From a virus, in IMG/VR virus record IMGVR_UViG_3300030328_002043, positions 1 through 27,270 of that record: a stretch of 27,270 nt of DNA; one strand, 5' to 3'. Positions 4,028 through 25,258 of this stretch are shown here, one piece after another. The translations under genes were made by a program, and so were the position numbers. The notes under the pieces were generated by a model that saw only the letters and a program-made list of their open reading frames with translations, was not told where the DNA came from and ran no database searches. The first letter of the stretch is position 1, and each line of letters opens with the position of its first letter.

Positions 4028-4933
4028 TTACCACCATTCATCTAAGTTTGTTTGATTTACATCTTTTCTAATTAAAGATAAATCCCATCCCATTGCATTG
4101 TAAATCGGTTCTGCTTTTTTAATTATAGAATCTGAATAATGTCTATAATCAGGGGTATGATTCGGCATAGCATCCTTTGTAGGGGCTGCTATGTAAGTAG
4201 GTCTTTTGTGTACTCCTGTTATTGGGTTAATGTATTTGGTTCTCATAGGGTCATCTTGTACTCTAACATAGAAGTATGAATCTTCAATTGGATTTTGGAA
4301 TGTTTGATTCCACCAAACTACTCCTTCAACTCCAGAACCAATAGTAGGTTGTTTACCTTCCATAGTTTTTAGGTTTAATTCTGAACCACATTTACCACAA
4401 AAGGATGTACTAAACTCTTTATGTCTTTCAAGAGCATCATTGATTGAATACTCTTTATTACAATCATTACATTTGTATTGAAATCTTTCAGGTCTAAATC
4501 TACTTCTGTTTGTGATTTCATCTGTTGATATATTACCATTCAATACTCTATTATATTCATCTTTAAGATATGCTGTGATGCTTTCTTCGCTCTCTCTATT
4601 AACCCAACGATTTAGAACTTCTAACTGTATGGTCTTTGCTAATGTAGTAACAGCCACTCTCTTAGCAGAAAAGCCTGTCATAACAAACTCATGTTCATCT
4701 AACCATTTACCGTCTTTCCAAGAAATCAAACCTGCATTTCTATTCTTAGTACAACCAACACCTAGAGTTTCATAATACTTTTCAAACTCTAAAGTTACAG
4801 GGTGTTCATCTAATTCAAGAAGATTAGGAAACATACTTCTAACATGATTGTTAAGTAATGCTAATGTTTCTTCTGCTCTTTCCATTGGCATCTGAACGTA
4901 AATAGAATCTGTGTGTCCATAAACTACTCTCAT
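4028..4933 (-). CDS. Family B DNA polymerase, C-terminal subunit (motif C, thumb, PIP box)
   Basis: A 301-residue protein carrying the part of PolB missing from the gene at 5314-6978. It opens with polymerase motif C as YGHTDS (residues 5-10): the first Asp of the usual YxDTDS is His, the second is kept. A four-Cys zinc site (CNDC and CGKC) sits in the middle, in what should be the thumb region. The last eight residues, QTNLDEWW, fit a PCNA-interacting peptide (QxxLxx-aromatic-aromatic), as in archaeal PolB enzymes, and the virus encodes its own PCNA. The start overlaps the upstream stop as ATGA. It should assemble with the large fragment to form an active enzyme, as known for split PolB in Methanothermobacter. 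Confidence 0.93.
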   Translation of the reverse strand: MRVVYGHTDSIYVQMPMERAEETLALLNNHVRSMFPNLLELDEHPVTLEFEKYYETLGVGCTKNRNAGLISWKDGKWLDEHEFVMTGFSAKRVAVTTLAKTIQLEVLNRWVNRESEESITAYLKDEYNRVLNGNISTDEITNRSRFRPERFQYKCNDCNKEYSINDALERHKEFSTSFCGKCGSELNLKTMEGKQPTIGSGVEGVVWWNQTFQNPIEDSYFYVRVQDDPMRTKYINPITGVHKRPTYIAAPTKDAMPNHTPDYRHYSDSIIKKAEPIYNAMGWDLSLIRKDVNQTNLDEWW

Positions 4934-5145
4934 ATTGAAAACTCCTTTACTTCTTTCTTAGTAAATAACTTAATTACTTTCTTCTTTTCATTCCATTTAG
5001 TTACAACCACAGAACCTTTTCTAGCACCATTTTCATAATGTGTTTCACCAACAACGGTAACAGGTATATATTGTTCTCTCCATACCATGTATCCAGAATG
5101 GCCTATATCATAATGAAAATCTTCTCTCCACTCCTTTATATTCAT
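4930..5145 (-). CDS. Unknown 71-residue protein between the polymerase halves
   Basis: Starts at ATG 5145, which forms an ATGA overlap with the preceding micro-gene and has AGGTGGAG just upstream. A GTG three codons earlier is less likely. The sequence is rich in Trp, Tyr and His at the N terminus, then alternates charged and beta-branched residues (GSVVVTKW, KKVIKLFT), suggesting a small beta-rich fold. No family is recognised. Its stop overlaps the start of the polymerase C-terminal gene, so the two are translationally coupled. That coupling suggests a protein made in step with the polymerase, possibly an assembly or accessory subunit. Confidence 0.75.
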   Translation of the reverse strand: MNIKEWREDFHYDIGHSGYMVWREQYIPVTVVGETHYENGARKGSVVVTKWNEKKKVIKLFTKKEVKEFSI

Positions 5146-5234
5146 TTTCTCCACCTACTACTATTGAATCTACCAATTACAGTAGATATTTTACCTATTA
5201 AATAGATAGCGTATATTGCTATTCTTCGCCTCAT
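5142..5234 (-). CDS. 30-residue basic hydrophobic micro-protein
   Basis: A short frame joined by ATGA overlaps at both ends: its ATG shares bases with the stop of the 28-residue zinc protein, and its TGA shares bases with the next start. The product begins MRRR, has a hydrophobic stretch (IAIYAIYLIGKI) and ends basic (SSRWRK). It could insert in a membrane or simply be a coupling frame that carries ribosomes between genes. The exact double overlap is the main evidence that it is translated; no homology is recognised. Confidence 0.5.
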   Translation of the reverse strand: MRRRIAIYAIYLIGKISTVIGRFNSSRWRK

Positions 5235-5317
5235 TTACAATCACCACACTTATATCTTCTATCTAAGCCAAATGGATGTATTTTACCACACCATCTACAT
5301 TGTCTTCTATTTCTCAT
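5231..5317 (-). CDS. 28-residue zinc-ribbon micro-protein
   Basis: ATG 5317 overlaps the stop of the polymerase N-terminal gene as ATGA, and its own stop overlaps the next micro-gene in the same way. The product has four cysteines as CRWC and CGDC separated by 15 residues, the pattern of a minimal zinc ribbon, with a basic N terminus (MRNRRQ). Such a peptide could bind nucleic acid or a protein partner. It lies exactly where PolB motif C would otherwise continue. The paired CxxC motifs in a frame this short argue for a real product. Confidence 0.65.
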   Translation of the reverse strand: MRNRRQCRWCGKIHPFGLDRRYKCGDCK

Positions 5318-6978
5318 TGTAATTCCCTCACTTTAAATGCAGCATATCTAATTGCTTCTCTAGCACTAGCAGTAATACTTGCAGCAATATCTACATCAGC
5401 CCAACCAAATCCTTGATATGCTGTAATACCATAGAATGAAGCCATCAGTCGTTTAACTGCCAATTGATTACTATTCCATTTAATTTGTTCATCTTTAGTT
5501 TCTGCTTGTCGCATCTTTGCTTTATATTCATCTCTTAGTTCTTTAAGTTCCAAAACTGCTTTCGGTAATAAACCAAGTTTATCTGTTTTGAAATAACGCA
5601 TATCTTCTTTTGTAACATCACTGAAATCTCTTGGTGTTAATATATTAACAGCAAACTCTGTTGGTTCATTCGATTTAGTTTCCCAAGAAATATTTCTTGC
5701 TATCATCATTGATGGATACAGTTGTGCAAAATCAAATGCGGCAACTCCAATATGAAGTCCGTTTGTTCCTTCTGATAATGGGTCGTAAATCATTGCTCCT
5801 TCATAATTCACACGCTCACCTTTTTCTCCCGTAGGGGCTTTCCACCATGCGTTACGCATAAAGTATATCCCGCCCATATTACTTGCGTAGAAACACGCTT
5901 CAAAGGGTGCTTTTAGCAATCTTTGTAGGGCAATCACAGATTCAGAAGTATTCATTCTGTCATCTATCTGAACTAGCAATTCTACATCCACCTTAGCATA
6001 GTCAAGATATCTTTGAGTATCTTCTAACCATCCTCTTTGAAAGAAATCATTCTTGTCTGGGAACTTTTCACTAACTAATTTCTTAGTACCTAGAACTAAT
6101 TCTGAAACATAATCCAATGCTAGTGAAGGTAATTGACCTCGTTGAGAATCATTCCATTGTCTTTCAAAGGCTAAGTCCAAATTAAGAACTAATCTTCCAC
6201 GAATAGGTTGTTCTATTGGAGAATACTTCTCCACAACTTTTGATAGTTTAATTCCTTCACCTGATTTAAAATATACTCCTTTAACATCTTGATGTGGAGA
6301 TATACAACGTGGGTCAATATGATTTGCGTTTAGTCTTTCTAGTAACTTAGGTAAATCGAACTTAGAACCGAACCATGAAATTAACATATCAGGGTCTTTA
6401 TTCATAATATCATCAACAAATGCAGATAACATAGAATGTTCATTTTTGAAATATTCTAGATGTCCTTCAACAACTCGAACTTCGTTTGATGGAGTCCACC
6501 ATAATACATTACATACACCTTCATAACTATCATAATATGAAATACAAGTAATTGCACCATCATGTTCTCCACCCTGTTGCCATTCTAAATCCCAATAAAA
6601 CTTCCTAAGATTATATTCTGGCATGTCATGTATATTATCAATAGCATATCTGTACGAATATGCTACATCTGCCTCATAGGTTTTATCAAATAGATTCTTT
6701 AATGTTTTACCATAGAAAGGTTTGGGAGGAGACCATGTAACTTTAGTCAACTTTTTGTTTTCCAAAGAAACATAGTCCCCTTCGCTATAACTCACATCAA
6801 TAGTAAAACTACTACCGTGTTCTTTAACAGTCATCTTCTTGATTTTATTAGCACTTTGCTCAACAAAGAAGTAAGGTGGTGCTTCATCATAAGACACTTC
6901 CTTCTCCATTCTATTATTATTCTCATCTCGCCATCTAAGGCTAATTAAATTATTTTTATCTACTGTGCTTATTATCAT
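5314..6978 (-). CDS. Family B DNA polymerase, N-terminal subunit (exonuclease, palm, fingers)
   Basis: About 554 residues from ATG 6978. The 3'-5' exonuclease is intact: Exo I DLE (130-132), Exo II KFD (206-208), Exo III YAKVD (327-331). Polymerase motif A is DFAQLYPS (416-423) and motif B is KRLMASFYG (509-517), where Ala replaces the usual Asn. The protein stops after the helix that precedes motif C (REAIRYAAFKVRELQ), and the next polymerase residues begin the gene at 4933, so nothing of the core is lost. No intein splice motif is seen at the break. It follows PCNA with a one-base gap. A GTG at 6987 is a weaker alternative start. It acts as the viral replicative polymerase together with the downstream fragment. 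Confidence 0.95.
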   Translation of the reverse strand: MIISTVDKNNLISLRWRDENNNRMEKEVSYDEAPPYFFVEQSANKIKKMTVKEHGSSFTIDVSYSEGDYVSLENKKLTKVTWSPPKPFYGKTLKNLFDKTYEADVAYSYRYAIDNIHDMPEYNLRKFYWDLEWQQGGEHDGAITCISYYDSYEGVCNVLWWTPSNEVRVVEGHLEYFKNEHSMLSAFVDDIMNKDPDMLISWFGSKFDLPKLLERLNANHIDPRCISPHQDVKGVYFKSGEGIKLSKVVEKYSPIEQPIRGRLVLNLDLAFERQWNDSQRGQLPSLALDYVSELVLGTKKLVSEKFPDKNDFFQRGWLEDTQRYLDYAKVDVELLVQIDDRMNTSESVIALQRLLKAPFEACFYASNMGGIYFMRNAWWKAPTGEKGERVNYEGAMIYDPLSEGTNGLHIGVAAFDFAQLYPSMMIARNISWETKSNEPTEFAVNILTPRDFSDVTKEDMRYFKTDKLGLLPKAVLELKELRDEYKAKMRQAETKDEQIKWNSNQLAVKRLMASFYGITAYQGFGWADVDIAASITASAREAIRYAAFKVRELQ

Positions 6979-6979
6979 T

Positions 6980-7753
6980 TCAATCACTTCTAACGTATGG
7001 TGCTATCACCATCTTTCTATTATTACCAATTAACATAACAGGTAAATTGTTACCTGTTAATAATCGCATCTCATTGTTTGTACAAAACTTATCCAAAGGT
7101 GCAGAAAACGTAACGTTCGCTTCTGTATCATTAGATGTTAACAAAGACACTTCTACTTTACTAGTATCTGAACCACCACTACTTGATGACATTATTGTAA
7201 ACTCATTTGTTCCGCCTTCATTATCAATAGTATAGGTTGCTGTACCTGATAGAGTACAGAACTTAATTGCATCTTTCAAATCATTACCCATAAATGACAT
7301 ATGGCAAGGCAATAAAGTCTTACCAAATATAGCATCGCTACCAACTTCATAATTAAAAGACATAATCATAGTAATTAGATTCATGTTAGTATGTTCTAAC
7401 AGTCTTGGTAATTTAACTGTCTTAACTGACCCTTTAACTATTAATTCAGATTCTTTAATCTCTATGTTAAGATTATCACATTTAATGTTTTTAACATACT
7501 TCATTAATTTCTCTATATCAAATATAACCATTTCTTCTTTTAACGTAGGATTATACGCGATTGGTATCTTAACACTCAATGCTGTTTTATCGTTACCGTT
7601 TAGTAACTCTAACTCTTCACTTCTAATAACTGCTACGCAGGTATTACTGATAACATCAGTCTTAGAAGTAGTAGAGGACTTATATTTGCCTTTAAGCCAA
7701 ATTGCCTCTACTGCTTCTATAAATGATTTAGTGCTTACTTGTATTACATTCAT
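6980..7753 (-). CDS. PCNA-like DNA sliding clamp
   Basis: A 257-residue protein, close to the usual archaeal PCNA length. The C-terminal region (MRLLTGNNLPVMLIGNN then KMVIAPYVR) matches the closing strands of PCNA, where LAPR-type endings are typical, and FSAPLDKFC resembles the central part of the second domain. The start at 7753 is fixed by an ATGA overlap with the RecA-like gene and by GAGAGG upstream; the longer frame to 7789 is rejected. It should ring DNA and tether PolB, whose C-terminal subunit ends in a PIP-like peptide. The RFC small subunit at 10812 would load it. Sequence is divergent, but context supports the call. Confidence 0.85.
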   Translation of the reverse strand: MNVIQVSTKSFIEAVEAIWLKGKYKSSTTSKTDVISNTCVAVIRSEELELLNGNDKTALSVKIPIAYNPTLKEEMVIFDIEKLMKYVKNIKCDNLNIEIKESELIVKGSVKTVKLPRLLEHTNMNLITMIMSFNYEVGSDAIFGKTLLPCHMSFMGNDLKDAIKFCTLSGTATYTIDNEGGTNEFTIMSSSSGGSDTSKVEVSLLTSNDTEANVTFSAPLDKFCTNNEMRLLTGNNLPVMLIGNNRKMVIAPYVRSD

Positions 7754-16575: not shown

Positions 16576-16786
16576 ATTCACCAACTACCTTATGCAAAGC
16601 CCTTAGTAATGTCTTTGCTTCTTCCATATTTACTCTTAGTCCTTTACGTGTAATAGAACCATTGTTATACCAACGCATATCTACCACATCTATTTTCCAA
16701 TATTCGCCCGTTTTAACTACTAACTCTTGTGTAGCACTACGGGGTATTCTTGCTATTATCTTTTCATTATTCATATTATCATCCAT
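16538..16786 (-). CDS. PC4-like ssDNA-binding/transcription protein
   Basis: An 82-residue protein. After a disordered Asn/Asp-rich start, the segment from TGEYWKIDVVDMRWY to a basic turn (GSITRKGLRVNMEEA) and a final helix (LLRALHKVV) follows the PC4 pattern: four strands with an IDxRxY-like strand, a KGLxLxxEE turn and one helix that dimerises. PC4-like proteins bind ssDNA and act in transcription or replication; homologues are common in phages. The start overlaps the previous stop by 8 nt (ATGGATGA) and lacks an obvious ribosome-binding site, so it probably depends on coupling. Confidence 0.65.
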   Translation of the reverse strand: MDDNMNNEKIIARIPRSATQELVVKTGEYWKIDVVDMRWYNNGSITRKGLRVNMEEAKTLLRALHKVVGEYGSESKETEREV

Positions 16787-17201
16787 TTGTTTTAAAATCT
16801 TTTAATTCTTTATTATTGTAAAAGTATCTAGGTGAAGCGAACTCATCTAACCTATTGGCTATCCAAACTGCTCCACCTAGACTACTAATTTGAACAATCT
16901 CATATTGTCCAACGCCACCATCTTCTGCTTTATCTATAATCTCAAGAGTATTAACTTCGGGTACTAACCCTGTTACTCTTGTTAATTCAGATGCAATAAC
17001 ACTAAGGTTATCTGAAACATACTTGATAATGTGGCCTCTTTGAATTGGTACTTTAGCATCTACTGTAATCAATAATTTTCCTTCAAACTCACATACTTTA
17101 CAACCATTGCCCTTTCTACCTTCTTCTATCGAACAGATAGGACAAGGCACTTCAGCAGGTAAAGGTGCGGGAAATCTTATTGTTACAGCATTTTGCTTCA
17201 T
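16779..17201 (-). CDS. Zinc-binding protein of unknown function
   Basis: A 140-residue protein with a four-Cys knuckle near the N terminus (CPIC at 20-23 and CKVC at 34-37) spaced by ten mostly basic and Gly residues. The central part is alpha/beta (KLLITVDAKVPI, NLSVIASELTRV, NTLEIIDKA) and the C-terminal part is mixed. The two CxxC pairs suggest a rubredoxin-like or ribbon domain rather than a RING, which would need eight ligands. The start forms an ATGA overlap with the lipoprotein gene. No family is recognised. Confidence 0.7.
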   Translation of the reverse strand: MKQNAVTIRFPAPLPAEVPCPICSIEEGRKGNGCKVCEFEGKLLITVDAKVPIQRGHIIKYVSDNLSVIASELTRVTGLVPEVNTLEIIDKAEDGGVGQYEIVQISSLGGAVWIANRLDEFASPRYFYNNKELKDFKTNG

Positions 17202-17656
17202 TCTCTACCATCCCAAACCCTGTAAACAACTTCATATTCTACTGTAACATCGAATGGGAATGCAGCGAAGTGCAAATCAACATTACCAAAATCAGGTGCT
17301 AAACCATTCTGCATGTATATACCATTCTGTACAAAATAACCTTTCATATTAAAAGTATAATTATTGAACTTAACAGTATTATTAATAACTTCAAAACTTA
17401 AATGAGTTGCTGAATAATTAAAATCACTAACTTCAACTAAACCATAAGTAGTATTAGTTTCAATAGTAATTAATGGTGCATACAATAATGAAGTGTTATT
17501 ATCTACACTAGTTAATGTAAAGTTACCATTTAACTTTAGCCATGCTTTCTGGGGTGCGTCATCTTCACTATAAACATCATCGGGGTCTGGTATTGCATCA
17601 GCACAACCTGCTAATAACGTACAAACCATAAGTAATGCCATCATTTTAGTTCTCAT
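17198..17656 (-). CDS. Secreted lipoprotein with many N-glycosylation sequons
   Basis: A 152-residue protein with a signal peptide: MRTK, a hydrophobic core (MMALLMVCTL), then the lipobox LAGC with Cys18 as the likely lipidated residue. The mature part begins acidic and carries at least six Asn-x-Ser/Thr sequons (NFT, NNT, NTT, NYS, NNT, NYT) in a beta-rich chain. It should be anchored on the outside of the host membrane and be heavily glycosylated. Roles in superinfection exclusion or surface change are possible but not shown. The start overlaps the JAMM gene stop as ATGA. Confidence 0.82.
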   Translation of the reverse strand: MRTKMMALLMVCTLLAGCADAIPDPDDVYSEDDAPQKAWLKLNGNFTLTSVDNNTSLLYAPLITIETNTTYGLVEVSDFNYSATHLSFEVINNTVKFNNYTFNMKGYFVQNGIYMQNGLAPDFGNVDLHFAAFPFDVTVEYEVVYRVWDGRE

Positions 17657-18198
17657 TCTTCATCATCTCCTATTTCATTATCCCAACTATACTGAGTATA
17701 TTCGTGATAGTTATTACCATCAGCGTCATACCTGAAGTACACGCTTTGCTTCTCACCATTACCTATAACAGTAGCGGAATCAAGGAATCTTTCATACATG
17801 CCTAATGTATTCATATCAGTACCACTCCAGAATGCTGCTCCAAATGGATGTGTATGAATCCATTCTTTCAAAGGGAACTTCATACCTGCAAGACCTTCTT
17901 CTTGCCCACCAAAGGTAACATAACCTGGATTTCCAGCACTAATATGACACTTATCATTACCATCAATTACTACCTGAATCTCTCTAGGTTTATCGAAAGC
18001 AGTTATAGACATATCCCATATTGTTTTATGGAAATTATCTATTGTTTTCTTGAGTTGAGACCTGTGTATTAAACATACATCTTCATATCTAGATTCTATT
18101 ATTCTTTTCCAATCAGGAATCACTTCTTCAAAGTCATCTCCTCTATAATCAATCAGATTAGTTCTGCCCTCTTCATTCATTTCTTTACCGTGTATCAT
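17653..18198 (-). CDS. JAB1/MPN (JAMM) metallopeptidase
   Basis: About 181 residues from ATG 18198, which makes an ATGA overlap and has GGAG nine bases upstream; an ATG at 18213 is the other option. The zinc site is complete: His115-Thr-His117-Pro, Ser125 and Asp128 in the order HxHP-x6-S-x2-D. Family members cut after the diglycine of ubiquitin-like proteins, for maturation or deconjugation. Here the window also encodes a Ubl with residues beyond its Gly-Gly, a ThiF/E1-like enzyme and an E2-like protein. A 110-residue N-terminal part precedes the zinc site. Phage tail JAB proteins are the main alternative, but no tail gene is nearby. Confidence 0.9.
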   Translation of the reverse strand: MIHGKEMNEEGRTNLIDYRGDDFEEVIPDWKRIIESRYEDVCLIHRSQLKKTIDNFHKTIWDMSITAFDKPREIQVVIDGNDKCHISAGNPGYVTFGGQEEGLAGMKFPLKEWIHTHPFGAAFWSGTDMNTLGMYERFLDSATVIGNGEKQSVYFRYDADGNNYHEYTQYSWDNEIGDDEE

Positions 18199-18683
18199 AG
18201 TAATGAACTCCATACATAATATGCCATACCTACACTTGCTATTCCTAGTAATGCTAGTCTAAGAGCATAGTTTGATTCCTTAGCATCCGTTGATGAATTA
18301 GGTGCGACAGTATCTACCGCATTACTAATTTGTTCTTCTTTCAACTCTTCTCTAACTTCTTTTAATTTACCATTAGTCGCTGATAGTTCCGCTTCACTCT
18401 GCTCAATTATTTCAGATATCTTTTCACTAATTTCTTGTGCTGCTTGATGAGGAGTAATTGTTTCTTTAATTTCTCCAACTACTTCTTCTTTCATTTGTTG
18501 AACCTTTTCAACATAAGCATCACCTGTCAAATCCTTTGCAGGAGTTTCTTTAATCAACTTACGATACCTTGCAGCACAGGCTGCTTTACTTCTACCAAGT
18601 TCATCTGCTATGGAGTCTCTATGCTCCTTAACAGACCAACCTTGTACTATTTTTTCTTCTTCATCTTTTGTCCATTTTGCCAT
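18195..18683 (-). CDS. Tail-anchored protein with Myb/SANT-like DNA-binding domain
   Basis: About 162 residues from ATG 18683 with AGGTGA upstream. Residues 4-45 look like a Myb/SANT helix-turn-helix (KWTKDEEEKIVQGW, then DSIADELGRSKAACAARYRKL). A long Glu/Lys-rich coiled coil fills residues about 60-115. The last 24 residues form one membrane helix (LRLALLGIASVGMAYYVW) at the very C terminus. The layout suggests a tail-anchored protein with its DNA-binding head in the cytoplasm, which could tether viral DNA or a replication complex to the membrane. It sits between the E1-like and JAMM genes and may be a substrate or part of that pathway. Confidence 0.75.
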   Translation of the reverse strand: MAKWTKDEEEKIVQGWSVKEHRDSIADELGRSKAACAARYRKLIKETPAKDLTGDAYVEKVQQMKEEVVGEIKETITPHQAAQEISEKISEIIEQSEAELSATNGKLKEVREELKEEQISNAVDTVAPNSSTDAKESNYALRLALLGIASVGMAYYVWSSLL

Positions 18684-18692
18684 AATAATCAC

Positions 18693-19313
18693 CTATATGT
18701 TTACTATAATTTTGTCCTTCACTTCTTCACCATTAAACCAACGTTGCATCCATTGTGCCCCATATCCAGCAATCGCTACGTGAGTAAAGTGTAAATCCTC
18801 AGTATTTAAGGATTCATTAAAGTTCTCTCCTTGACAGGAGAAAGAACCTTCTGGGCCATTTAGTAGAGTTTCACTAAAACCACTATCTGCAAGATAACTA
18901 ATTAACGCACCATTTCTACCCTGTGCCCTTAAGTCTAACCATGCCTGTTTACAATCCTCACCAAAACCAAGAGAGTACAGTAATTTTCTAACTGCTAAGT
19001 TATCTGCACAACATACAATTAAATCAAAACCATCTAACTGTTTCTTGGTTAAGATGGGATATGATTTACCCCAATTTAAACCAACATCCATTGCATGATT
19101 AAGACAAGTAGTGTTAAGTCTCATTGCAGTTACCTTATCTAAACCGATATCACCATGTTTAAAGTTTTGATAACTGATGTTTTTCAAATCAACAGTATCA
19201 GGGTCGTGCATGTGAATCTCATACAACCCTGTCCTATGAAGAAGTGGTGTAAGGAAACTCCCTATACCTCCAACTCCAATTACTAGCACTTTTCTTTTCT
19301 TCATTATATTCAT
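18693..19313 (-). CDS. ThiF/E1-like adenylating enzyme
   Basis: A 206-residue Rossmann protein. GVGGIGS lies at residues 13-19, then DPDTVDLKNISYQNF with Asp37, Asp39, Asn45 and Gln49, a DIGLDK loop ending at Lys60, and CADNLAVR with Asp104 and Arg109. These match the ATP and Mg sites of the E1/ThiF/MoeB fold, which adenylates the C-terminal Gly of Ubl proteins. Cys160 (SFSCQGE) is the best candidate for the thioester cysteine. The paired CxxC zinc site of ThiF and MoeB is absent, and it is shorter than those enzymes. The start is an ATGA overlap with the TFB gene. Confidence 0.88.
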   Translation of the reverse strand: MNIMKKRKVLVIGVGGIGSFLTPLLHRTGLYEIHMHDPDTVDLKNISYQNFKHGDIGLDKVTAMRLNTTCLNHAMDVGLNWGKSYPILTKKQLDGFDLIVCCADNLAVRKLLYSLGFGEDCKQAWLDLRAQGRNGALISYLADSGFSETLLNGPEGSFSCQGENFNESLNTEDLHFTHVAIAGYGAQWMQRWFNGEEVKDKIIVNI

Positions 19314-20239
19314 TTTAATATTCCTCCATTTCTTATTCCAGAGACAAACTCTTCCACAGTCATATTCTTAAGATTAGACTTATTGATATTTAACATAGGA
19401 AAAACTTTTTTGGAAACTAAACGTTGTGCAACTGCTGAACAGTTACAAACGTCACATATTTCCTGTTGGGTAAACTCTGGCTTACCCTCTTCACGCAATA
19501 TAGAAGTCATCCATATTCCTGTCGCCATATAACTTCTTGAGAAGTGTACATCATTGGCAGTTACTAATTGATGTAGATACTCTACAACCGACCTACAATC
19601 ACTAGTGAACTCTCTACTAGCATTCAAGTCATTACATACTCTATCAATCCAAGATGATATAGGCATGTTTTGTAATATGTGAGATTTACCTAAGAATCTA
19701 GCAAAGTGTCTAGCACATTTAGAAACCTTATGGGCATCTTCATTATTTCTATCAGCAATTTCACTTATACTAATAGGTATTCCATATTCTCTTAGAGATA
19801 TAATTACAACACTACATGCCCTTAGAGTTAATGGAACTCCTGTAAACTTATTGTTAAGATACAGTTTACGATAATAACCGTGAACACTATCTTTCAAACT
19901 AGCATTAGGTAAATATGGTGAGAGTACCATATTACACTCTAACAGTCCTTTATTGATTGAAACATTCTTTTTATCTCTAAACCTCATCTGAGTTCTTTTA
20001 AGAGATGATAGAACTTTATTATTGGTTTTTCCTTCACCGATAAAAGAACCTAATGTTTTATCTGCTTCTTTAAGATAAATACCACTACCAAGATTATAGT
20101 GATGGTCTGTTGTTACTATGGTCTTACTAGTTTCTTCAAATATATTTGATACTTGAACATACCCACAATTAATACAGACATGTTCTCCCAATCTATCATC
20201 AATCTCAAAATCTAATCCTTCACATTCACTACACTTCAA
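19310..20239 (-). CDS. tfb: Transcription initiation factor TFB (TFIIB-like)
   Basis: About 309 residues. The start is probably TTG at 20239: it overlaps the previous TGA as TTGA, the same geometry as the ATGA junctions, and GGAGG lies 8 nt upstream. The zinc ribbon is Cys3, Cys6, Cys22, Cys25 (CSEC and CINC). Two cyclin-like repeats follow, the second with a helix-turn-helix region (FTQQEICDVCNCSAVAQRL) that would contact BRE DNA. A virus-encoded TFB could redirect host RNA polymerase to viral promoters, probably for a later gene class. It stands between the E2-like and E1-like genes. Confidence 0.9.
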   Translation of the reverse strand: MKCSECEGLDFEIDDRLGEHVCINCGYVQVSNIFEETSKTIVTTDHHYNLGSGIYLKEADKTLGSFIGEGKTNNKVLSSLKRTQMRFRDKKNVSINKGLLECNMVLSPYLPNASLKDSVHGYYRKLYLNNKFTGVPLTLRACSVVIISLREYGIPISISEIADRNNEDAHKVSKCARHFARFLGKSHILQNMPISSWIDRVCNDLNASREFTSDCRSVVEYLHQLVTANDVHFSRSYMATGIWMTSILREEGKPEFTQQEICDVCNCSAVAQRLVSKKVFPMLNINKSNLKNMTVEEFVSGIRNGGILK

Positions 20240-21582
20240 AGATGCTCCCTCCAATTATATGTTTCTTCATCTATCTCTGGTATTGGTATTGGATACCTAC
20301 TCTCCTTTTCACCAGATAAAACATCTTCATCTATGTGTCTACTAATAGTATGAACAAGTTTTACAGTTAGGCTATCATTCAATAAAGCCAATGCTCTTGC
20401 TGCAAACTGGTCTCCTAAACTAGAGTTAGAATGGATATTATCAATACATATTGAACCACTCCATTTATTTTCACTAGCCTTCCAAACATATACAGCAACT
20501 TTCTGAGTCGCACTACTATTTCTTCTGTCGAATAAAGCCCAATCACACATTTTTCCAGAAACCAACATAACCTTTTTACTTATTTCTCCATCCTTTACAT
20601 CAAATAGATTAATCCTGTCTGGATATTTAACAACTAAACTTTCCATTAATTCTTTTGCTCTATTTTCTACTAAGTCTTTAGTTCTATTTTGAACTAGAAA
20701 CTCTTTCATTAAATCTAATTGAGCATCAGTCGGTTCTTCACCCATACATCTAGTCCAAAGAGTTCTAGGGGAGCAATTCTTCCATCTACTAGACCTTTTA
20801 TGACCGAGATAAAATGTATTAATCATTGTATCTAAATCACTAACTTCTAGGCTACCCCATATACCATCAGATACTTCTATTGCTACTTCACTAGTTCCTA
20901 TTAATTGAGTATTTAATCTACAATCTACTTTGGCTCTTGTTGACATATCGAAGAAAAAATAAGGTAATCTATTTTCCAAGACATATGTTATGTTCTCTGG
21001 CAATTCTAACATACCCATGAGATAAGTAAGAAGTTTAACACCATCTTTTTCTGAACATGCTCTAAATAAGTAGCGTGATACAGAATACAAAAGATTGTTC
21101 TTCTTAACTCTTTGATTCATCAACTTGTAATATGTTTTACCTTTCTCAATTAAGATTACTCCCATTGGATTATGTTCAGGTAAAACTATTGCTAATTTAT
21201 ATGTTTCAGGTGCTTTCCACCAACCTCTTCTAGTACCAAGACCTAATATGTATTGAAGAATACCTTTTGCTTCTACTATAAGAGGCTCGCCTTTATGGTA
21301 TCCGCCTACATGTTTTACAGATATGCAGATGGTAGATTCCCTAACAATATCGCCATTGTGATTAGGAAACGCTCTATTAGTAACTACGTTATGTGCCCCT
21401 CCAAGATGTTGAGGATTGACAGTTCTATTGTAGTCGCTATTCAACATATTAATGGGATAAGTAGAATACAATTTGCATTTAGTTTCAACATATTGAGTCC
21501 TGTCATCAGAAGGAATATAAAATCTCACAATTAAATTGTATTTATTTTCATATGCATTTTCAAAACTATCTAAATTACTCAT
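20236..21582 (-). CDS. Large protein with an E2-like (UBC) N-terminal region
   Basis: A 448-residue protein from ATG 21582. Residues about 15-115 follow the E2 conjugating-enzyme pattern: strands (NLIVRFYIP, VETKCKLYS), a YPINML turn like YPxxPP, then FPNHNG...STICIS like HPNxxxxGxICL with Cys86 at the catalytic position, and EPLIVEAKGILQYILGLG like the W-P-x-L-x-I-x-x-I-L helix. About 330 residues follow with no family I recognise. The Ubl, E1-like and JAMM genes of the same strand support a conjugating role, but the E2 call rests on pattern and context. The start overlaps the previous stop by 8 nt. Confidence 0.5.
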   Translation of the reverse strand: MSNLDSFENAYENKYNLIVRFYIPSDDRTQYVETKCKLYSTYPINMLNSDYNRTVNPQHLGGAHNVVTNRAFPNHNGDIVRESTICISVKHVGGYHKGEPLIVEAKGILQYILGLGTRRGWWKAPETYKLAIVLPEHNPMGVILIEKGKTYYKLMNQRVKKNNLLYSVSRYLFRACSEKDGVKLLTYLMGMLELPENITYVLENRLPYFFFDMSTRAKVDCRLNTQLIGTSEVAIEVSDGIWGSLEVSDLDTMINTFYLGHKRSSRWKNCSPRTLWTRCMGEEPTDAQLDLMKEFLVQNRTKDLVENRAKELMESLVVKYPDRINLFDVKDGEISKKVMLVSGKMCDWALFDRRNSSATQKVAVYVWKASENKWSGSICIDNIHSNSSLGDQFAARALALLNDSLTVKLVHTISRHIDEDVLSGEKESRYPIPIPEIDEETYNWREHL

Positions 21583-21874
21583 TATCACCATCTCTTTTAT
21601 TGGTTATATATTGGTAATCACAACCTACTGATATAGCATAAACCAAAACAATATCTTTCTTTAATCTAGCAAATTGTCTCCAAGAATAATAGTCCTTACC
21701 TATCTTGGGTCTTTCTAATCCATTACCACGCCTTCTACCAAAACCATCTGCTTTGGTTCTCTTCCTATTATTTTCTCTCAGATATTGCTTTAACGCCTTT
21801 ATTATATCTGATTTGTGAATACTATTATATTCGATTTTTATTTCTTTCTTTTCATTTTCATTTTCTTCTTGCAT
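21575..21874 (-). CDS. Unknown small basic protein
   Basis: A 99-residue protein with a Glu/Lys-rich first 14 residues, a helix (KSDIIKALKQYLREN), a strongly basic Arg/Gly stretch (RKRTKADGFGRRRGNG) and a final alpha/beta part (LVYAISVGCDYQYI). The basic stretch suggests nucleic-acid binding. GAGG lies 8 nt before the ATG, and 37 nt overlap the end of the upstream gene. No family is recognised. It directly precedes the E2-like gene. Confidence 0.65.
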   Translation of the reverse strand: MQEENENEKKEIKIEYNSIHKSDIIKALKQYLRENNRKRTKADGFGRRRGNGLERPKIGKDYYSWRQFARLKKDIVLVYAISVGCDYQYITNKRDGDNE

Positions 21875-22323
21875 TTTAATTCCTCGTTAAAATCAACCTC
21901 TACAAATTGTACATCTTTAATGTAGTAACCATTGTCTAAGATTGCAGTAAACTTGTTCATTGGTACGATACTAACAAACTCAAGTTCTAATCTCTTTCTT
22001 CTTTCATTGTACCTGTATTTCCAGATTATATGTTTATTTCTCCATTTGGTACATTGAAACTTATTCCTCTTAGCCTTATTTTCTATATGGGCTGCTATCT
22101 TCAACACATCTTCTATTTCTGCATCTGGAACTCTCTCCATCAACCTTTCAATAAAGTGAGGTGTAAATACAGCCCAAAAGAAATGGAAACCATCTGCTTT
22201 GATTACTTTGTGATGTTCTGCATCAAACGGTTTGAACTCCGTACCGCAAGCCTGACAAATTAGTTTGCCTTTCATATTCAAATTAAACTTATTACTTCCA
22301 CATTTACAATCACTAAACTTCAT
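21838..22323 (-). CDS. Zinc-ribbon plus RelE/DUF4258-like protein
   Basis: A 161-residue protein. The N terminus is a zinc ribbon with CKCG (Cys6, Cys8) and CQAC (Cys23, Cys26). The rest resembles a RelE-type fold: TPHFIERLMER helix, EIEDVLKIAAH helix, then strands with HIIWKYRYNERRKRLELEFVSIVP. RelE-family toxins cut mRNA on the ribosome, but catalytic residues vary and cannot be judged here, and no antitoxin is obvious. It ends in a Lys/Met-rich tail that overlaps the next gene. GAGG lies 9 nt before the start, which overlaps the previous stop by 11 nt. Confidence 0.6.
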   Translation of the reverse strand: MKFSDCKCGSNKFNLNMKGKLICQACGTEFKPFDAEHHKVIKADGFHFFWAVFTPHFIERLMERVPDAEIEDVLKIAAHIENKAKRNKFQCTKWRNKHIIWKYRYNERRKRLELEFVSIVPMNKFTAILDNGYYIKDVQFVEVDFNEELKCKKKMKMKRKK

Positions 22324-25051: not shown

Positions 25052-25258
25052 TTACTGAGTTCCGCCAACTATTGCTGGAATTAGGTCTACTGAAGTTACA
25101 GTATCCCAACTTACTTCTGATATCATTTCTCTTGATGTCAGTTCACCGTCAATGATTACCCAATGAGATGGGTGGTCATTAATTTGGTCTATCACCTGTG
25201 AACTAGTTTGGTTAACTAATTCAGTATGTCCAGATTCATTCATTATTGTCAATAACAT
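25052..25258 (-). CDS. Ubiquitin-like protein (ThiS/MoaD/SAMP type) with a Gly-Gly-Thr-Gln end
   Basis: A 68-residue protein with beta-grasp layout: a first hairpin (MLLTIMNESGHTELV), a helix (SQVIDQIN), a strand (WVIIDGELTS), then REMISEV and a final strand DLIPAIVGG. This parallels ThiS, which ends in VIAGG after an REQW-type segment and an xxILLF strand. The diglycine is Gly65-Gly66, followed by Thr67-Gln68, so the two last residues must be removed to expose the Gly carboxylate. The JAMM peptidase at 17653 could do this and the ThiF/E1-like enzyme at 18693 could activate it. It could act in protein conjugation or as a sulfur carrier. GAGG lies 8 nt before the start. Confidence 0.72.
   Translation of the reverse strand: MLLTIMNESGHTELVNQTSSQVIDQINDHPSHWVIIDGELTSREMISEVSWDTVTSVDLIPAIVGGTQ

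Follow-up and report, generated by a model that had tools for sequence, protein, structure and literature searches.

Complete sets of a ubiquitin-like modifier (Ubl), an E1, an E2 and a JAB protease have already been described for bacteria and for some archaea. Nearest in kind to the viral locus described here are the Bil operons, the type 6d operons (which we take to be the PRTRC systems), the SAMP system and the CBASS E1-E2 proteins. The SAMP/UbaA/JAMM system of Haloferax is archaeal and combines a small modifier ending in GG with a single ThiF-type E1 and a JAMM protease; to our knowledge, it operates without an E2. In this organism, SAMP2 stimulates degradation of TBP2, a transcription factor, by the proteasome (PMC4895103). 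The bacterial ISG15-like system BilABCD comprises one Ubl, an E1, an E2 and a JAB whose action leaves the Ubl with a free C-terminal Gly; its own features are two Ubl domains in BilA, paired adenylation domains in BilD and a CEHH motif in BilB (PMC11354881). The type 6d operons of Iyer et al. 2006 likewise bring together a Ubl, a JAB, an E1-like protein and an E2-like protein lacking the classical His (PMC1779556).

The window analyzed here, the entire IMG/VR virus record of 27,270 bases, encodes a 451-residue protein that we interpret, with a probability of roughly 0.7, as the conjugating, E2-like enzyme in a Ubl conjugation and deconjugation cassette carried by the virus. A sequence-only reading had suggested, at 20236-21582 and next to TFB, a possible E2 domain with a long unfamiliar region fused to it. 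The ORF is real, but it lies on the minus strand and starts three codons earlier, encoding 451 rather than 448 residues; the plus-strand frame contains 29 stops across 20236-21582. The idea of a fusion beside TFB survives with the order reversed and a different cysteine: approximately 300 residues with no assigned fold come first, followed by a probable UBC-like C-terminal domain (304-436) with an invariant C382. The adjoining TFB is indeed the next gene downstream (19310-20254), and to this neighborhood can be added E1, JAB and Ubl-like genes that the sequence-only reading had not named. The features of the protein are as follows.

20236..21591, minus strand: ORF of the E2-like protein, 451 aa from ATG, with an N-terminal part of ~300 residues and a C-terminal UBC-like domain
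20284..20682, minus strand: likely UBC-like domain, residues 304-436, from the element order of the AF2 model and the VIA-align rows
20446..20448, minus strand: codon of C382, candidate active-site cysteine by conservation
21325..21327, minus strand: codon of Cys89 (Cys86 in the earlier numbering), not conserved in the 71-row alignment

Relatives were found by neighbor scans from TFB and NrdJ, then with a 10-row alignment, and then by all-frame profile searches. E2-like homologues are present on at least 82 non-duplicate virus contigs, the window included (L115, L116, L121, L122, L126 and L129 were dropped as contigs already counted), and collapsing identical sequences reduced the 82 to 73 distinct ones, with the partial sequences L191 and L032 kept outside the 71-row alignment. 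Relatives represent the best 80 of 92 confirmed loci for the E2-like gene and the best 80 of 581 for NrdJ, so that further relatives exist in the collection beyond those counted. The presence of the E2-like gene is far beyond chance.

C382 is a cysteine in all 71 aligned sequences and in 73/73 distinct sequences of a second alignment, and it is the only invariant cysteine of the protein; C224 and C282 vary, being Cys in 15/71 and 1/71, respectively. The residue lies within a UBC-like motif, GxxCIDN, and D384, N385, G393, D394, Q395 and R399 around it are likewise invariant. We take the stretch GxICIDN...ALALLND to recall the E2 active site GxICLDIL...LL.DPN. An AF2 model from 71 sequences (pLDDT 86.0, pTM 0.64), used after a model from 4 sequences had been set aside (pLDDT 38.9), predicts a helix at 306-322 followed by strands at 327-334, 337-345, 349-355 and 365-371, a short strand at 376-381, C382, and helices at 392-404 and 406-412. 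The order helix, four strands, Cys and helix is that of UBC domains, with Cys at the E2 position; in the model, the conserved cysteine sits after strand 376-381 and before helix 392-404, as the E2/UBC superfamily requires. Matches in VIA-align clustered on model residues 304-436, and 38 of the 50 listed were E2/UEV chains (Z 3.7-4.6, 93-125 residues, rmsd 3.9-4.9); nine contained actin-capping protein or related complexes, at up to Z 4.8, and the rest were two kinetochore chains and one Mediator chain. Since all of these fall below Z 5, which is middling on the scale of VIA-align, and the model is long, the UBC fold of residues 304-436 is taken as likely rather than shown.

Other comparisons gave no assignment to a known family. 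No match to the 451-residue protein was found in Pfam, PHROGs or NCBIfam; PF00179 (UQ_con) matched 0 of 16 records, no E2 family occurred among 25 of the 31 Pfam families listed for the 71 members, the listed matches included none to Prok-E2 models, and the HPN motif is absent before C382. Foldseek against the PDB returned no match at E<=0.001, the first E2 appearing at rank 43, a negative that by itself rules out no family, and a viral structure library yielded only three orthologues at the same threshold. When a profile of residues 289-451 was aligned with UBE2D2, C382 fell on the active-site Cys with a weak score that 27/2000 shuffles equaled; for the N-terminal profile, 63/2000 shuffles scored as high, and the middle region (200-301) gave no score. 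The 451-residue protein is thus not classed as a canonical ubiquitin E2 (PF00179). It is probably a tag-transferring, E2-like enzyme with its active Cys near the opposite end from the one first proposed.

The neighboring genes supply candidates for the remaining activities of a conjugation pathway.

19310..20254, minus strand: TFB-like transcription factor, flanked by the E2-like and E1 genes (match to Zn_Ribbon_TF at E 2.2e-5, which misses the Pfam cut-off)
18693..19313, minus strand: E1/ThiF-like activating enzyme, 206 aa (Pfam ThiF 4.5e-18; invariant residues)
18834-18836, minus strand: codon of C160 of the E1/ThiF-like protein, invariant
17653..18213, minus strand: JAB/JAMM metallopeptidase-like protein, 186 aa, with conserved E78, H120, H122, S130 and D133
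17815-17856, minus strand: JAMM motif HTHPFGAAFWSGTD of the JAB protein
25052..25258, minus strand: candidate Ubl, 68 aa, ending ...PAIVGG-TQ, with the GG codons at 25061-25066

The E1-like protein scored 65.7 bits with PF00899, for which the cut-off is 28.1, and its GxGGxG, D37, D39, K60 and D104 are seen directly in 69/69 sequences; C160, invariant in 68/68, probably carries a thioester, as suggested by its position. Among solved structures, the E1 profile matched ThiF-type 9egc, Cap2, UBA5 and MoeB (2e-10 to 5e-10). In the JAB protein, the five conserved residues are present in 70/70 sequences and form the E plus H-x-H-x7-S-x2-D zinc motif. In the PDB, its profile matched AMSH-LP best (2.5e-5); it also matched 6fjv, an Rpn11-like protein of archaeal type, at 6e-4, and the Pfam Prok-JAB match was below the cut-off in 15/16 records. 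The two profiles were built from 34 of 69 E1 and 35 of 70 JAB sequences. Nearly all JAB proteins also end in an acidic EE/EEE tail.

In the 68-residue protein, the GG pair is invariant in 59/59 distinct sequences; nine stop exactly at GG and 50 continue for one to three variable residues, which is the expectation for a modifier with a clipped tail. Its N-terminal 25 residues can be aligned without gaps in register to ubiquitin 1-26, a weak likeness reached by 28-30 of 2000 shuffles. The protein has no meaningful sequence match in the PDB, and no Pfam Ubl model matches it. Identification of this protein as a Ubl modifier, drawn from sequence features, is supported but not proven, and the evidence for the E2 and ubiquitin folds is moderate.

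The gene set and its arrangement can be read directly from the contigs. Across the 82 non-duplicate contigs analyzed, the cassette genes and TFB keep one order and strand, namely (380-aa gene)-Ubl-NrdJ-E2-TFB-E1-JAB-140-aa gene-ligase, although some loci have gained or lost genes. In 82/82 contigs, the E2-like gene is followed within 200 bases by TFB in the same orientation. E1 is found in 78/82, JAB in 77/82 and Ubl in 69/82, and the loci that lack any of them are all cut short, extending at most 3,711 bases on the upstream side of the E2-like ORF or 2,185 on the downstream side. NrdJ occurs in just 56/82 contigs, some of the others being truncated loci, and the RNR therefore looks dispensable as a partner. 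By contrast, in the DNA examined around the best 80 of 581 NrdJ loci, cassette genes occurred at just four, L035-L038, which match NrdJ most closely. Two further genes accompany the cassette in part of the contigs.

18195..18692, minus strand: Myb-like domain with a C-terminal hydrophobic segment, optional member (Pfam Myb 4.4e-4, below the cut-off)
16779..17201, minus strand: 140-aa protein with CPxC...CxxC, near JAB in 69/82 contigs

The Myb-like protein has a helical stretch between its domain and the hydrophobic segment and lies between E1 and JAB in 43/82 contigs. The 140-residue protein has no Pfam match; it is a candidate partner, possibly zinc-binding and perhaps E3-like. A small predicted lipoprotein (17198-17656; LLAGC near the N terminus, by eye) adjoins JAB in 34/82 contigs.

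Alternative roles for the 451-residue protein were weighed against this evidence. The sequence-only reading had located the E2 domain at the N terminus, with Cys86 as the active site, and the letters on which it drew do occur in this single protein (YP at 45-46, FPN at 75-77 and ICIS at 88-91). They are not conserved in relatives, however: residues 86-92 lack Cys in 60 of 70 aligned relatives and hold any Cys in only 10, and in the three contigs of a first scan (54-55% identity) V-[STN]-V-S stands in place of the ICIS strand, so that its Cys is unconserved even in close relatives. Residues 82-90 are modeled as a strand rather than an active-site loop (pLDDT 86), variation within the protein is greatest in its N-terminal block, and VIA-align listed no E2 match there, in a part that was barely tested. 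Because Cys86 is not conserved, an outcome that the sequence-only reading had itself named as refuting, an N-terminal E2 domain was given up and is now scarcely credible; the accompanying suggestion of an E2-E3 fusion found no sign of an E3 part. A different proposal keeps the C-terminal fold but makes it an inactive RWD/UBC scaffold, with transfer performed by E1 or by no enzyme, as in SAMP systems without E2. Consistent with this are the missing HPN motif, the two kinetochore chains among the VIA-align matches, which we take to be RWD domains, and the inactive E2/RWD proteins known in bacterial cassettes (PMC1779556). Invariance of C382 in 73/73 sequences, whereas other cysteines vary, argues against a scaffold and makes it improbable.

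Other explanations reassign the whole gene set. If the GG protein were a ThiS-, MoaD- or QbsE-like thiocarboxylate carrier, charged by the ThiF-like enzyme and trimmed by JAB, the 451-residue protein would be a sulfur acceptor acting through C382. In QbsE- and CysO-type systems, a GG protein does occur together with a JAB, ThiF and MoeB are the best model matches of the E1, and ThiS matches 2/59 Ubl members very weakly (best 0.086). The UBC element order around C382 in the C-terminal model speaks against such a pathway, as does the lack of a rhodanese or CysM-like gene among the window proteins scanned (part of the ORFs), and we regard it as unlikely, although it is the alternative to which we give most weight. 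The 68-residue protein could also be a PinA-like protease inhibitor or another small protein, the genes merely traveling together, since PinA protease inhibitor (PF10465) weakly matched 15/59 members (best 7.9e-4); however, GG in 59/59 with zero to three variable residues after it, always on contigs with the E2-like gene, and the presence of E1 and JAB wherever the contig is long enough render this very improbable. Finally, the cassette may serve chiefly in counter-defense, blocking or mimicking an antiviral Ubl pathway of the host instead of modifying viral or transcription proteins. The E1 does resemble the E1 parts of defense E1-E2 proteins (PADLOC 6.6e-12), but the conserved position among replication and TFB genes is that of a core module, not of a variable accessory island, and a counter-defense role likewise seems unlikely.

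We favor a conjugation cassette with the 451-residue protein as its E2-like enzyme, for which we infer, by analogy with known systems, the following course of events. JAB would trim the short tail behind the GG of the Ubl and would later detach the Ubl from modified proteins. Adenylation of the GG end would fall to the ThiF-like E1, which would probably hold the Ubl as a thioester on C160, from which C382 in the UBC-like domain would take it and hand it to target proteins. The N-terminal ~300 residues may select the E1 or the targets, and tagging could lead to the host proteasome or to reversible control. TFB stands behind the E2-like gene in every contig and ahead of E1 in all those that have one, so the likeliest targets would be viral or host proteins of transcription or replication; with TFB embedded in the cluster, transcription control is our leading guess.

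The E2-like profile matched 0/3 of the haloarchaeal virus HVTV-1, crAss cr128_1 and Flavobacterium phage Fpv1, and tblastn against GenBank phages recovered neither an E2-like nor a JAB homologue. A first scan of genome contigs for cellular E2-like homologues found none; a second detected the protein on two GTDB MAG contigs labeled Maricaulis and Altibacter (L193, L194), which are probably viral contigs mis-binned into bacterial MAGs. The window encodes a split family-B DNA polymerase, an RFC small subunit, an ATP-dependent ligase, an ERCC4 nuclease and TFB, and the Aoguangviridae (magroviruses) are drawn with PolB-NTD/CTD, RFC-S, PCNA and TFB (PMC10768690). From this repertoire we infer a magrovirus-like archaeal tailed virus, probably marine, with a presumed archaeal host; the cassette probably belongs to magroviruses. 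The family-B DNA polymerase is divided over two ORFs at 4028-6987, and at 21838-22323 a zinc ribbon is joined to a weak match to T4 RegB-like endoribonuclease (Pfam 0.0041).

On a broader reading, one lineage of archaeal tailed viruses would have, among its core genes, a full and self-sufficient ubiquitin-type pathway for conjugation and deconjugation, with TFB-wired tagging to switch or degrade transcription or replication proteins and a new E2 family, defined jointly by a 300-residue N terminus with no assigned fold, a UBC-like end and a CIDN active site; this joint claim is advanced tentatively, at somewhat less than even odds. In the literature searched, no such set is described among the core genes of tailed viruses of archaea, and the passages searched in magrovirus-related papers (Philosof 2017 and Prabhu 2025 lying outside that search) make no mention of ubiquitin, ThiF or JAB for these viruses. 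If true, the reading would provide a compact four-protein system open to in vitro rebuilding, a new E2 family for tracing the origin of the conjugation machinery, and a function for a conserved uncharacterized gene of probably widespread marine viruses, and it would raise the question of which proteins an archaeal virus tags during infection.

Among viral systems, the Crassvirales (crAss001-like) have a block with JAB (Prok-JAB 6e-5) and ThiF (1.1e-17) beside a 435-residue protein and near replication genes, together with a gene whose N terminus looks Ubl-like by eye; unlike the cassette described here, it belongs to viruses of bacterial hosts. This arrangement recurs in Crassvirales and some Flavobacterium phages (L015:1611-5663, cr128_1, and L016-L024), where the conserved 435-residue protein bears YMHSHV...PCLGSGP and the Ubl-like gene (by eye) is nearby in most of L015-L024; in L024 (Flavobacterium), only ThiF and the 435-residue relative were identified. 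Homology of the E2-like protein to the 435-residue crAss protein, suggested by a local match by eye, was rejected at an hhalign probability of 0.14-0.15%, as was that of the Ubl to the crAss Ubl-like protein (0.5% and 0.1%). These phage genes are possibly a second, separate viral Ubl-type set. JAB and Ubl also occur together in tailed viruses as the lambda K and I type tail-assembly pair (PMC1779556); those are tail genes, whereas the present cassette lies among ligase, RFC, TFB and NrdJ and includes E1 and E2-like proteins. The Haloferax SAMP system is chromosomal, in contrast to the viral cassette. The type 6d operons are bacterial, and the His after their Cys is absolutely conserved (PMC1779556), whereas position 387 of the viral protein is His in only 29/71 sequences. 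Compared with BilABCD, the viral cassette has a single 68-residue Ubl, a 206-residue E1 and a CIDN motif in place of the defining peculiarities of Bil, and its E2 domain ends a 451-residue protein, encoded by a virus, with TFB inside the cluster.
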